NCBI GenBank assembly: GCA_030950925.1 | Contig: JAUZQO010000033.1 | Coordinates: 1-32,385, forward strand | Reading direction: 5' to 3' | DNA length: 32,385 bases | Origin: Mariprofundaceae bacterium | Lineage (GTDB): Bacteria; Pseudomonadota; Zetaproteobacteria; Mariprofundales; Mariprofundaceae | Shown here: positions 2,170 to 31,910 of the stretch, piece after piece | Layout of the letters: each line of letters begins with the position of its first letter | Numbering within the stretch: position 1 is the stretch's first letter | Translations under genes and position numbers: made by a program | Notes under the pieces: generated by a model | Told to the model about the DNA's origin: nothing | The model's input: only the letters and a program-made list of their open reading frames with translations | Database searches by the model: none

Positions 2170-2300
2170 TCCGACCCTTTCCTCTCCGTCATTCCCAAAG
2201 GCTTGTATTGGGAATCTATGTTGAATTTATTAGCCCCCGACACAAGCCTCGGGGGCTGACGACTTAAGAGGTCGCTCCATACTTAAACGGCTATAGGGAG
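2170..2300 (+). repeat. Diverged copy of the double-hairpin TA-type miniature element
   Basis: The gap between the permease gene and the binding-protein gene holds one repeat. Hairpin 1 (about 2180-2206) pairs ATTCCCAA with TTGGGAAT around AGGCTTGTA. Hairpin 2 (about 2233-2258) pairs AGCCCCCGA with TCGGGGGCT around CACAAGCC. An end CCATACTTAAACGGCTATA at 2277-2295 matches the terminal repeat of the 125-bp elements. The loops are complementary over 7 bases. The left terminus is degenerate. The second hairpin is GC-rich and could also weaken readthrough, but no T-run follows it. Confidence 0.7.
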
Positions 2301-6500: not shown

Positions 6501-6699
6501 ACGCATGAATGGAGAAGATTGCTTTCGTGAACTGAGGCGTATTGATCCCCATGTGGTGGTGATTCTTTCTTCGGGATACAATCAACAAGATGCGACCAAT
6601 AGCTTTGCAGGCAAAGGTTTGGCAGGCTTTATTCAAAAACCTTATTTTCCACAAGACTTGGGGGATATGATGATGGAAGCGTTGAAAAAGAAAGGTTAA
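3559..6699 (+). CDS. Hybrid sensor histidine kinase (periplasmic sensor, HAMP, two PAS, kinase, receiver)
   Basis: This is a 1046-residue inner-membrane kinase. It has a transmembrane segment at about 15-37, a large periplasmic Cache-like sensor to about 320, a second transmembrane segment at about 322-345, a HAMP linker, and two PAS domains (about 425-540 and 545-665, the second with the SGYSEEELLGKNPR motif). The dimerisation helix holds GGIAHDFNN (phosphoacceptor His681), the ATPase domain has NLVINASEAIG, DTGCGM and GRGLGM, and the C-terminal receiver carries Asp977 in LLDMTMP and a late Lys in FIQKPY. No DNA-binding output is present, so the signal must leave by a separate Hpt or partner. 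The start at 3559 overlaps the upstream binding-protein stop. Its catalytic half is a close paralogue of the kinase at 23638-25992. The kinase frame is open upstream to 3493. Confidence 0.92.
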   Translation: MNKFLPKFMRFHSLFTELMTWVSLTLILLSVIFGMYIYDHVNKVIEQQYLSALESLADEKASSIYNILEKDRSNVRVLSHIPEVHEALLGLEKAFYTDGVNGRSYQEKQHHYDAYFQYFLEGSYYDLFLIDQKGTIVYTVQHESDFGKNLLKGAYKNTGLAKAFRQSLKNLEVVNSTFAYYEPSQDPALFITAPMIVKHQVIGVVGLQVNTQNFYHEVNNYVGLGKTGMVVVGRRVGDHVLLASPLRHDPDAAFQRTIPLNASFSRPIRESSQGKTGKAILKDGRGNDVLAVWQYIPALQWGMVVKIDTSEAFSYWQELRKTLMFYIFMGLLLLGLVVFLVMYRITKPLQRLTEASAAIASGQDDVVWPSLAYRSNELSVLSQSFQTMTQHLQASKQALLKTVQALDENNQLLDSRVHEQTAKVRAVLDATSDGMVTVDVLGVIQRVNPALCRMFEYAEDDLIGSSFTRFFEASEKKTLSHELLAYSAGEEGLNRHLRGVKKSEVLFQIDLNINVMQVDQQNLFLATVHDVSERTRMELQQTRLTEAIDQSKDAVLITDRDGVIEYFNPAFQRLSGYSEEELLGKNPRIMNSGKMSKDFYQRMWDTLMRGDMWHAEFTNCHKDGTLYEVYQTISPILDQDTHIVGFTAVQRDITGEKEEREKLEHIQRLESLGVLAGGIAHDFNNLLTAILGNAALAKQRVDHLSPVTPLLTNVELASEKAAALCKQMLAYSGKGKFITEKINLTHMIQEMMSLLDVSIDKNIVVRLDLSEQLMPIEADVAQMQQVVMNLVINASEAIGKHSGTITLHTGVVDIDQQYITTTYIDSDLKPGRYVALEVSDTGCGMSNDTKRHLFDPFFTTKFTGRGLGMSAILGIIRGHQGGIKVYSELAKGSTFKVLFPCLDFSELEVEDQNFQSSRQTVEAQGTILVIDDEETIRSTAAMMLETFGFKTLTAQDGEVGVAVFREHQAEISAVLLDMTMPRMNGEDCFRELRRIDPHVVVILSSGYNQQDATNSFAGKGLAGFIQKPYFPQDLGDMMMEALKKKG

Positions 6700-6760
6700 G
6701 ATCCCTGAAATCTGTCTCTATTCGTCATTTCCGAAATCTTGTGTCGGGGATCTATGAATA

Positions 6761-6885
6761 TAGTGATTCAAGTATTAAACCACCGTCATTCCAGAGTGCT
6801 TGTGTCTGGAATCTATCAATAGACCCTCGACACAAGCATTCGAGGGTGACGGCAACATAATGTAGTATTCATACTTAAACGACTA
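6761..6885 (+). mobile_element. 125-bp miniature inverted-repeat element (MITE), copy A
   Basis: The element is bounded by TA at 6759-6760 and 6886-6887. Its ends are TAGTGATTCAAGTATT and, read inward from the other side, TAGTCGTTTAAGTAT. Inside are two hairpins: ATTCCAGA/TCTGGAAT with loop GTGCTTGTG, and ACCCTCGA/TCGAGGGT with loop CACAAGCAT. It is the reverse complement of 9600-9724 with one mismatch in 125. There is no coding capacity. TA duplication and short terminal repeats fit mobilisation by a Tc1/mariner-like (IS630-type) transposase encoded elsewhere, which is inferred. Confidence 0.85.
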
Positions 6886-6976
6886 TAGATACCCACTACA
6901 CGCATTGGGGGGTGACGGCTACATAATGTAGTATTCATACTTAAACGACTATAGATACCCGCTACACGCATTGGGG
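6845..6976 (+). repeat. 66-bp tandem duplication, two copies
   Basis: Units 6845-6910 and 6911-6976 differ at only two positions, and a third start (GGTGACGA) follows at 6977. Each unit contains the right terminal repeat of the miniature element plus 25 bp of the older repeat. The junction lies in GGTGAC, which is present in both parents, consistent with slippage or unequal recombination at microhomology. Confidence 0.85.
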
Positions 6977-7059
6977 GGTGACGATTCGGATGATGAACGA
7001 AAGGATCTTACCTTATCAAAAAATAGCGCAAAGCCCCTAGCTTCAGCTATGGGGATATA

Positions 7060-7265: not shown

Positions 7266-8463
7266 ATGTTGATTCGCAAGGGATATAAATTCAGGCTTGA
7301 TCCAAGTACAGTTCAACGTGCGGATATGGTCATGTTTGCAGGTCATAACCGTGCAGTTTGGAACAAAGTCCTTGCCTTAACCAAAGATAGGCTTGAACGG
7401 AAGAAACCCATCCTATGGTTTCATGAACTCAATTGGAATATGGTCAACTTTTGGAAGAAATCCGAAGAGATGAGCTGGCTTAACGATGGCTCCTAGCCAG
7501 TCACTTATTCAGATCATTAAACAGTTTGATCGAGCTATGCGTGATTGTTTCGATAAAAACCAACCCAATAAACGTATGTCACGCTTCAAAAAGAAAGGTG
7601 TGAAAGATTCCTTTCTTTTCCCACAATGTATATCCGTTGAAGGTAACTGCATGAAATTTCCCAAACTTGGTTGGGTAAAATTCCGCAAGTCGCGTGATTT
7701 GGAAGGCAAGCTAAAATCAGCGACTGTTTCACGAAACGGAAAGCACTGGTTTGTATCCATTTTGTGTGAAATCGACGTGCCTGAACCCATTCACACCTCA
7801 AGCAGTGCCGTGGGCATTGATCGTGGCGTTGCCATCATGGCGGCGTGTTCCGATGGTCAAACCTATATCGTCGCAAAGGCTTTTAAGAAATATGAAAAGA
7901 AACTCGCAAGGGCAGGGCGTTTGCTTGCTCGCAAGGTGAAGTTCTCAAACAACTGGAACAAACAAAAGGAGAAGATTCAAACCATCCACGCGAAGATTGC
8001 CAATATACGCAAAGATGCACTGCACAAAGCGTCCACTGACATCAGCAAGAACCACGCAATGATTGTCATGGAAAAGCTTGGTGTATCGCGTATATCCAAA
8101 TCTGCGAAAGGAAACAGTGAAAAACACGGTTCCAATGTCAAATCCAAAGCAGGCTTAAACAAATCCATCCTCGATGCAGGGTGGAGCATGTTCGCAGCGA
8201 TGCTTGAATATAAACAGCGTTGGCATGGGGGTATGGTTGAATATATACCTGCCGCATACACATCCCAACGATGCCATAAGTGCCAGCATACAGAAAAAGC
8301 CAATCGTGTATCTCAATCCAAATTCAAGTGCCAACAATGTGGACATTCTGCTAACACAGACCAGAACGCAGCACTGAATATCTTAGCGGCAGGACATGCT
8401 GTCTTAGCTTGTGGAGTGGATGCAATAGCAACCACAATGAAGCAAGAACCGCTTACAGCTTAA
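7266..8463 (+). pseudogene. tnpB: TnpB RNA-guided nuclease, frameshifted
   Basis: TnpB is the RNA-guided DNA nuclease of IS200/IS605 elements and an ancestor of Cas12. Translation starts at ATG 7266 (MLIRKGYKFRLDPS) and reads to NDGS, with a stop at 7494-7496. The second frame carries the rest from APSQSLIQIIKQFDRA. One extra G at about 7483-7486 (gatGgct) explains both frames, since NDAPSQSL is the family reading. The RuvC acid residues look intact: D in GIDRGVAIMA, E in IVMEKLGV and D in ANTDQNAALN. So does the zinc finger, CHKC...CQQC. Everything except the single base appears functional, so the lesion is recent, a sequencing error, or bypassed by ribosomal frameshifting. I favour recent decay. 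Confidence 0.88.
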
Positions 8464-9266: not shown

Positions 9267-10192
9267 ATGATCAACGTGAATTTACACGCATTTTATAGCG
9301 TATTTAAAAGCCCAAAATCAGGTCAACTCTCACAAACCGACAAGGATGCTATGGTTGTTGGTATTGTCAGCAGGCTATCTCGTGGAAGTGCGCTGCTTCA
9401 GAGAGGTCTTTTTTCAACGCGATCAGATATAGATACTAGAATTGAGAACCTATCAAAACACGATTTTCTTGCTAAGTAAGACACAGATAAAGGAGCTTGA
9501 AGAGATTGCACGACTTTTTGAAAAGGCTGAGAAAGATTTAAAGAAATCTGAGCATCTTGATACAAAATTAACCATTCCTTGTATCAACGAACTACGATAT
9601 AGTCGTTTAAGTATGAATACTACATTATGTTGCTGTCACCCTCGAATGCTTGTGTCGAGGGTCTATTGATAGATTCCAGACACAAGCACTCTGGAATGAC
9701 GGTGGTTTAATACTTGAATCACTATATGCAGGCTATCATATTGTAAAAGCAACATCGAACGATAATACAAATGAAAATCTTAAAAAAGCTGTTGGGCATT
9801 GCAAAAGAGCTATTTATGATGCGAATGAAAGCGCGATTGTATTTTTGCTTGAAAGAATTGCTGCATTTCAAAATGACTATTCAAAATCACCCAATGTTTC
9901 CACAATAATTTTAGAGTACTCAAAATTGAAGCAAGAAATTTTGGGGATTTCTGAGCGGATCCAACACAACAAAAAACAAAATAGGGATAGCAGGGATCAA
10001 TACTATGAAGCTTGCGCCAACGACTGTGATAGGTTGAAAGATATCGAAAGTCTGTTAAATATTAGCCGTGATGAAATCAACGTATTGGAAGCACGTGATG
10101 TTAAAGCAACAAGACGCTTCATTTTGGGAATACTTCTATCTTTCATCGCACTTGCTTTGATTGTTACAAAGTTCTTTATTTCTAAAGACTAA
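9267..10192 (+). pseudogene. Coiled-coil, C-tail-anchored protein of unknown function, broken twice
   Basis: Three frames together form one gene. The first reads from MINVNLHAFYSVFKSPKSGQ to SKHDFL; the second continues LSKTQIKELEEIARLFEKAEKDLKK to INELR; the third runs YAGYHIVKATSNDN to the stop at 10190-10192. Lesion 1 is a one-base gain, most simply TTT to TTTT at about 9460. Lesion 2 is the 125-bp element at 9600-9724; deleting it with one TA copy (127 bp) joins CGA-TAT-GCA in frame (LRYAGYH). The restored protein would be about 265 aa, helical and charged in the middle, with one C-terminal membrane helix (ILGILLSFIALALIVTKFF). I recognise no domain. It stands alone between repeats and the convergent recD. 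Confidence 0.75.
9600..9724 (-). mobile_element. 125-bp miniature inverted-repeat element (MITE), copy B, inside a gene
   Basis: This is the reverse complement of 6761-6885 with a single difference. It is flanked by TA at 9598-9599 and 9725-9726. Precise removal of one TA plus the element restores the host gene's frame, which directly shows that it inserted at TA. It has no coding capacity and the same two hairpins with complementary loops as copy A. Confidence 0.9.
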
Positions 10193-29033: not shown

Positions 29034-29170
29034 CGTCATTCTCGAAATCTTTTATAGGGAATCTATGTGCTCCAACAGACTCCCGAGACAACCCCCGACA
29101 CAAACATTCGGGGGTGACGTACGCGGGGTGACGATTCAGATGATGATCTAAAGGTCAGTTCCATATTTAA
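29034..29170 (+). repeat. Double-hairpin repeat between the TonB receptor and the FetB-like gene
   Basis: The 250-bp gap holds one repeat: a weak first hairpin (CGTCATTCTCGAAATC...GGGAATC), a strong second hairpin ACCCCCGA/TCGGGGGT around CACAAACAT, then GTGACGATTCAGATGATGATC and the terminal-like CCATATTTAAA. The 49-bp block at 29088-29136 recurs inverted and identical at 31853-31901. Confidence 0.75.
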
Positions 29171-31810: not shown

Positions 31811-31910
31811 TAGCGTGGTTTAAGTATGGAACTACCGCTTTGATCATCATCCAATCGTCACCCCGCGTACGTCACCCCCGAATGTTTGTGTCGGGGGTTG
31901 TATCGAGGGG
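31811..31910 (-). repeat. Double-hairpin repeat, inverted relative to 29034-29170
   Basis: A terminal repeat TAGCGTGGTTTAAGTATGG starts at 31811 after a TA (31809-31810). It is followed by the strong hairpin ACCCCCGA/TCGGGGGT (read on the minus strand) and then CCTCGA. The left half of the element is missing. 31853-31901 is the exact inverse of 29088-29136. It fills the gap between the DUF4399 gene and the kinase-like fragment. Confidence 0.75.

Follow-up and report, generated by a model that had tools for sequence, protein, structure and literature searches.

Nested insertion at a single TA in the twin-hairpin core of a small IS630-type MITE of the Mariprofundaceae

Our analysis of a 32,385-nt stretch of Mariprofundaceae DNA (hereafter the window) centred on a pair of hairpins. 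With good probability, they form the core of a MITE of the IS630/Tc1-mariner type, a small non-autonomous transposon whose new copies would preferentially enter the spacer of an existing copy at the TA adjacent to the B hairpin. Thirteen of the 51 complete elements are enclosed by the A and B arms of a different copy, including 11 of the 30 from the source genome, among them the window element. Eleven of the 13 nested copies, including ten of the 11 in the source genome, entered at the TA that a single base separates from the B stem (GAGGGTC^TA). The core consists of two GTCA-footed hairpins which are inverted relative to each other and flank a CTAT..ATAG spacer, and in other copies the TA of this spacer beside the B arm is a fixed landing site for further MITEs. 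Both arms follow one plan of GTCA foot, 8-bp stem and 9-nt loop. The A arm has the sequence ATTCCAGA-gtgcttgtg-TCTGGAAT and the B arm ACCCTCGA-cacaagcat-TCGAGGGT; read in one direction, these become GTCATTCCAGA-GTGCTTGTG-TCTGGAAT and GTCACCCTCGA-ATGCTTGTG-TCGAGGGT. The two hairpins had been proposed at this place in a first-pass annotation of the window, and we located both, as well as a further hairpin pair that it had placed near 2180–2258 and whose loops match as it had stated (Table 1).

Table 1. Positions of the hairpin-bearing elements and their parts in the window.
Feature	Position	Strand	Details
IS630-type MITE (TAGTGATTCAAGTAT...ATACTTAAACGACTA)	6761–6885	+	duplicated TA flanks at 6759–6760 and 6886–6887
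A-arm hairpin	6785–6812	+	GTCA foot, 8-bp stem, 9-nt loop GTGCTTGTG; stem covariation
Spacer CTATCAATAG	6813–6822	none	between A and B arms
B-arm hairpin	6823–6850	-	GTCA foot, 8-bp stem, loop ATGCTTGTG (- strand reading)
A arm of older host element (GTCATTTCCGAAATCTTGTGTCGGGGAT)	6724–6751	+	unit score 43 bits; 7 nt from insertion point
Diverged B arm of older host element (ATACCCACTACACGCATTGGGGGGTGAC)	6888–6916	-	unit score 26.8 bits; 1 nt past insertion point
Second complete copy of the same MITE	9598–9726	-	TA duplications; arms 9635–9662 and 9673–9700
Diverged A/B hairpin pair	2188–2260	+	arms 2188–2215 and 2233–2260; loops AGGCTTGTA / AGGCTTGTG (second in unit orientation)
A/B hairpin pair of a different subfamily	29035–29118	+	mismatched loops AATCTTTTA, ATGTTTGTG
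Solitary B-type hairpin ACCCCCGA-ATGTTTGTG-TCGGGGGT	31871–31898	+	

The hairpin units are numerous in the source genome, a draft of 75 contigs, and in its congeners, which are likewise draft assemblies. A covariance model of the unit gave at least 150 matches in the source genome, and an independent IUPAC pattern found 187 units there and none when the pattern was reversed. Congeners carry up to 244 units per genome and the remaining genera of the family at most one. Within the window, the pattern GTCA-N-GCTTGT-N-GA occurs five times, compared to 0.27 expected occurrences. Our sample of paired hairpins comprises 123 pairs, about 94 from the source genome and about 29–30 from congeners, with one ambiguous pair of the source genome omitted; in each, the stem of the A arm is ATTCC[AC]GA or ATCCCCGA, and the B arm is of the ACCCTCGA or ATCCTCGA type. 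Arrays of half-hairpin units, for example of repeated CTCGAGGGTGACG, were observed at four loci (L078, L116, L117 and L118) and probably arose from the twin-hairpin core by deletion. Convergent GTCA-footed pairs (GTCATTCC...GGAATGAC) were also seen in Omnitrophota, Bacteroidota, Methylophaga, Sulfuricellaceae and Calditrichota (L162, L163, L167, L170, L173, L181, L191 and L236), which suggests a very widespread class of palindromic repeats; in other phyla, the two loops are often unrelated, such as ATGCTTTTA with CGAAAG. Among the papers listed in a literature search for the motif GTCATTCCCG, all were apparently unrelated.

Several features mark the element as a mobile unit. It is non-coding and about 125 bp long (129–143 bp if both TAs are counted), the outer boundary of its copies is sharp, with TATAGTGATTCAAGTAT on the left and inverted TATAGTCGTTTAAGTAT on the right, and the terminal repeat TATAGTNRTTYAAG stands at either end in inverted orientation. 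A search from terminal repeat to terminal repeat that made no demand on hairpins found 30 places in the source genome, 20 in genome G005 and one in G010, compared to none for the reversed pattern, and all 51 elements read from these places contain the hairpin arms. When the flanks of un-nested copies are fused, they match, base by base for L106, L113 and L097, uninterrupted one-TA sites in genome G005. For copy L112, G005 again holds an uninterrupted one-TA site, and the alignment shows a small gap where the flanks meet; for L122, the match of the fused flanks is too weak to place the junction. The congener stretches with the empty sites are L325, L326, L327 and L322. In the source genome and congener G008, genes for IS630-family transposases (PF13358) lie between ends that are of the MITE's type: TATAGTGAATCAAGAAT / TATAGTGAATCAAAAAT for L035 of the source genome, TATAGTGATTCAAGAAT for congener locus L256, and TATAGTAATTCAAG and TATAGTAGTTTAAG for congener locus L254, compared with the MITE ends TATAGTGATTCAAG and TATAGTCGTTTAAG. 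The match of the terminal repeats spans about 14–17 bp and no further. At L035, the IS630 element interrupts an open reading frame, which is restored by a join at one TA (GAC AAA CGT GC-TA-TG TAT TAT TGG). Based on the terminal inverted repeats, the IS630-like ends and the one-TA empty sites, the sequence identifies the window element as a MITE of the IS630/Tc1-mariner type, and the family has most likely moved since the split of the two species.

The IS630 element of the source genome reads as two out-of-frame ORFs. In its transposase region (L035, 1293–2185), two frames overlap and a run of A marks their junction, which could point either to programmed frameshifting or to a disrupted gene. 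On the same contig (C29), the IS630 element is adjoined by a TnpB like the one encoded at 7268–8463 of the window, where a TnpB gene (OrfB_IS605 / Cas12f1-like) lies near the MITE and has no adjacent TnpA. The same A/B core was also observed inside a second MITE family of about 150–255 bp with unrelated ends (ACTGATGTTACGC; L054, L086, L091, L098, L106, L107 and L126). Tracing this terminal repeat in the source genome revealed no pair of ends about 1–1.5 kb apart that would be fit to bound an autonomous partner.

The window element itself sits in the spacer of an older element, and a second copy of the B arm of this host lies in a tandem duplication that ends at about 6982. This duplication of about 66 bp (6855–6982) links the right MITE end with the host B arm, and both the right end (ATACTTAAACGACTATA) and one GGGGGGTGAC arm are consequently present twice. 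The complete copy at 9598–9726 is located at the 5′ end of an ORF (9650–10192) and may have truncated that gene. The diverged pair at 2188–2260 has kept a flank resembling the terminal repeat (CATACTTAAACGGCTATAG) on its right side only. The copy near 29034, which had been taken for a decayed version of the element, is a pair of a different and commoner type with non-matching loops.

Nested insertions were found in both orientations, in hosts from different subfamilies and with outer flanks that differ between loci, and they therefore represent independent events; they leave host spacers that can be restored as intact. Among the 30 elements of the source genome, 0.06 nested copies would be expected if all TAs were equally available, 0.53 if only intergenic TAs counted, and 1.5 if these were further limited to the context [AC]TA[GT], which is favoured by the un-nested insertions. 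Compared to this last expectation, the 11 nested copies correspond to a P of about 1e-7 and to an enrichment of about 7-fold, a factor that is approximate since the count of intergenic TAs was extrapolated from this single window. The preference is strong and not absolute, with 38 of the 51 insertions un-nested. At an orthologous locus of genomes G000 and G005, different MITE subfamilies occupy the same TA (L065 and L329, with flanks CATAATAT/ATATTATG), which is an independent hot spot and another sign that such hot spots exist.

Insertions into old copies might also accumulate without any targeting if selection had removed those elsewhere. All hairpin pairs of the window lie between genes, old MITEs presumably offer neutral ground, and nesting could in part reflect that insertions there do no harm. 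We regard such tolerance as an unlikely explanation, as the element contains 13 TAs and few other insertions were found in or next to hairpin elements, whereas 11 of the 13 nested copies occupy one and the same TA, which favours recognition of one site over general tolerance; moreover, the enrichment persists if the count is restricted to intergenic TAs in the favoured context. The anatomy of the core also resembles that of REP doublets, with a conserved 4-nt foot, a hairpin, inverted pairs and more than 180 units per genome, and congeners encode Y1 proteins of the size of REP-associated tyrosine transposases (RAYTs), so that the repeats could be REP or BIME sequences spread by a RAYT that recognises the GTCA-footed hairpin. 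The foot of our unit is, however, GTCA and not of the GTAG/GTGG type that heads RAYT REPs (PMC2817692), none of the Y1 loci scanned in the source genome and the congeners is flanked by paired or inverted GTCA units, and the Y1 matches of the source genome are IS200/IS605 remnants. In addition, the TA duplication marks the whole 125-bp element, and not the hairpin, as the mobile unit. We therefore rejected a RAYT-type REP identity on the grounds of the foot and the Y1 loci, and consider spread by a RAYT very improbable.

The first-pass annotation had proposed that selection maintains a paired-hairpin or kissing-loop structure, since the loops of the window element are complementary and appeared to covary with those of the copy at 2188. 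Its claim of stem compensation between copies holds: five of eight stem positions show strong mutual information (0.25–0.94 bits, p<0.001). The same does not apply to the loops. Among 85 distinct pairs, partner loops are identical at 5.55 of 9 positions on average and randomly re-paired loops at 5.66 (p=0.93), and the longest pairable run is 4.55 compared to 4.63 after shuffling (p=0.76); for the CCAGA subfamily by itself, the corresponding values are p = 0.28 (identity) and p = 0.12 (longest run). Mutual information per loop position revealed no association of the pairing type beyond shuffles, except weakly at position 9 (p=0.019 in nine tests), while position 1 is anti-associated between partner arms. 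As the stems were strongly positive in this test, it has power. The cited two-sided change from T to G corresponds to loop position 2, and there congeners G001 and G008 have G, T or C in the A arm but only T in the B arm. Among CCAGA copies of the source genome, 25 loop changes are one-sided and three two-sided, two of these being compensated; such one-sided changes had been named beforehand as evidence against covariation.

Similar loops that are inverted relative to each other are complementary by construction, so that complementarity alone is uninformative on pairing. The match of the loops comes from a shared motif (N-N-K-C-T-T-K-T-R), versions of which stand in the two arms in opposite directions, and loop pairing is not conserved. 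Long complementarity is mostly limited to one recently amplified subfamily: a loop match of at least 7 nt is present in 32 of 46 CCAGA elements, 25 of which share an identical loop pair from a single recent burst, and in only 8 of the 77 non-CCAGA elements, leaving 69 without. The transcript of the window element is predicted to fold into one long foldback (-43.3 kcal/mol, z -6.2), in which the loops pair inside a continuous stem and do not kiss, and folding across the set indicated that the preference for the foldback is stronger in the CCAGA subfamily. Partner shuffling and mutual information thus refute kissing loops as a general property, and maintenance of an RNA or DNA structure by selection on loop–loop pairing, to which the CCAGA matches and the matching loops at 2188 had seemed to point, is highly implausible. 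What stands of the proposal are the stems, kept either by selection or by hairpin-templated correction; because hairpin-templated mutation can equally yield stem compensation, compensation is no proof of function.

The hairpins might nevertheless act mainly at the RNA level, as structures for mRNA processing or attenuation comparable to the Correia/NEMIS elements cleaved by RNase III. The strong predicted fold of the transcript would agree with such a role, and the account of Neisseria MITEs in PMC2229807 provides a precedent. We consider this rather improbable as their main role, though such an RNA effect may arise as a by-product, as neither a terminator-like site nor an Rfam match was found: the Rfam 15 covariance models gave no match in the window at the gathering score and none in 6650–7050 up to E=1, and consensus detected no terminator.

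Nearest in kind to the MITE described here, judged from their published descriptions, are the Correia, ERIC and RUP elements; in ERIC, we know of no twin-hairpin landing site. The ERIC elements of enterobacteria share with it a length of about 127 bp, terminal TA and an intergenic location, as outlined in PMC2229807 and PMC3049150. According to the same accounts, Correia/NEMIS elements of Neisseria are similar in having about 107–156 bp, inverted repeats of about 24–26 bp and a terminal TA, whereas the core described here consists of two separate local GTCA-footed hairpins and a landing-site spacer. RUP of Streptococcus pneumoniae, a MITE proposed to be moved by IS630-Spn1, is likewise short, TA-flanked and non-coding, with terminal repeats that resemble those of an IS630-family element; its description in PMC2229807 gives neither a fixed landing position nor a twin GTCA-footed hairpin core. 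Pneumococcal small repeats have also been reported to insert into one another (PMC3049150). REP sequences are targeted by the IS elements ISPsy8, ISPpu9 and ISRm22 (Tobes and Pareja 2006, PMC1525189), which similarly enter a hairpin-forming repeat at a single precise point. Those IS elements do not themselves contain the repeat that they target, while here the landing site lies inside the element and the TA is duplicated. ISY100 and other IS630/Tc1-mariner elements also target and duplicate TA, and ISY100 appears to need nothing in cis other than its terminal repeats of about 24 bp (PMC2170065); our element differs in being non-autonomous and in its marked preference for one TA of a hairpin core. 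Judging by its sequence, the MITE would thus differ from the known cases in carrying the landing site itself and being hit at one base. Among the titles and abstracts listed for zetaproteobacterial MITEs and for nested bacterial IS630 MITEs, we found no described case.

From the nesting pattern, we infer that the transposase acting on the MITE ends may prefer the TA on the B-hairpin side of the spacer in an existing copy, and that new copies would consequently nest inside old ones. The core would serve as the landing site, most likely owing to the ease with which DNA prone to form hairpins or cruciforms bends or unwinds, and its stems might be maintained for this role or through hairpin-templated mutation. 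It is also quite possible, and we put this forward tentatively, that the MITE is self-targeting: the twin-hairpin core would then be a built-in pad that steers copies of its own and related families to the exact TA in older copies; genes would be spared and nested arrays would build up.

Overall, a direct statistical test with the stems as positive control eliminated a tempting claim of RNA kissing loops. The nested copies provide ready-made empty-site controls for target choice by IS630 elements. The element represents a candidate for a bacterial MITE which bears its own preferred insertion site, and may be relevant to how small parasitic repeats reach dozens of copies with limited damage in a 2-Mb genome.
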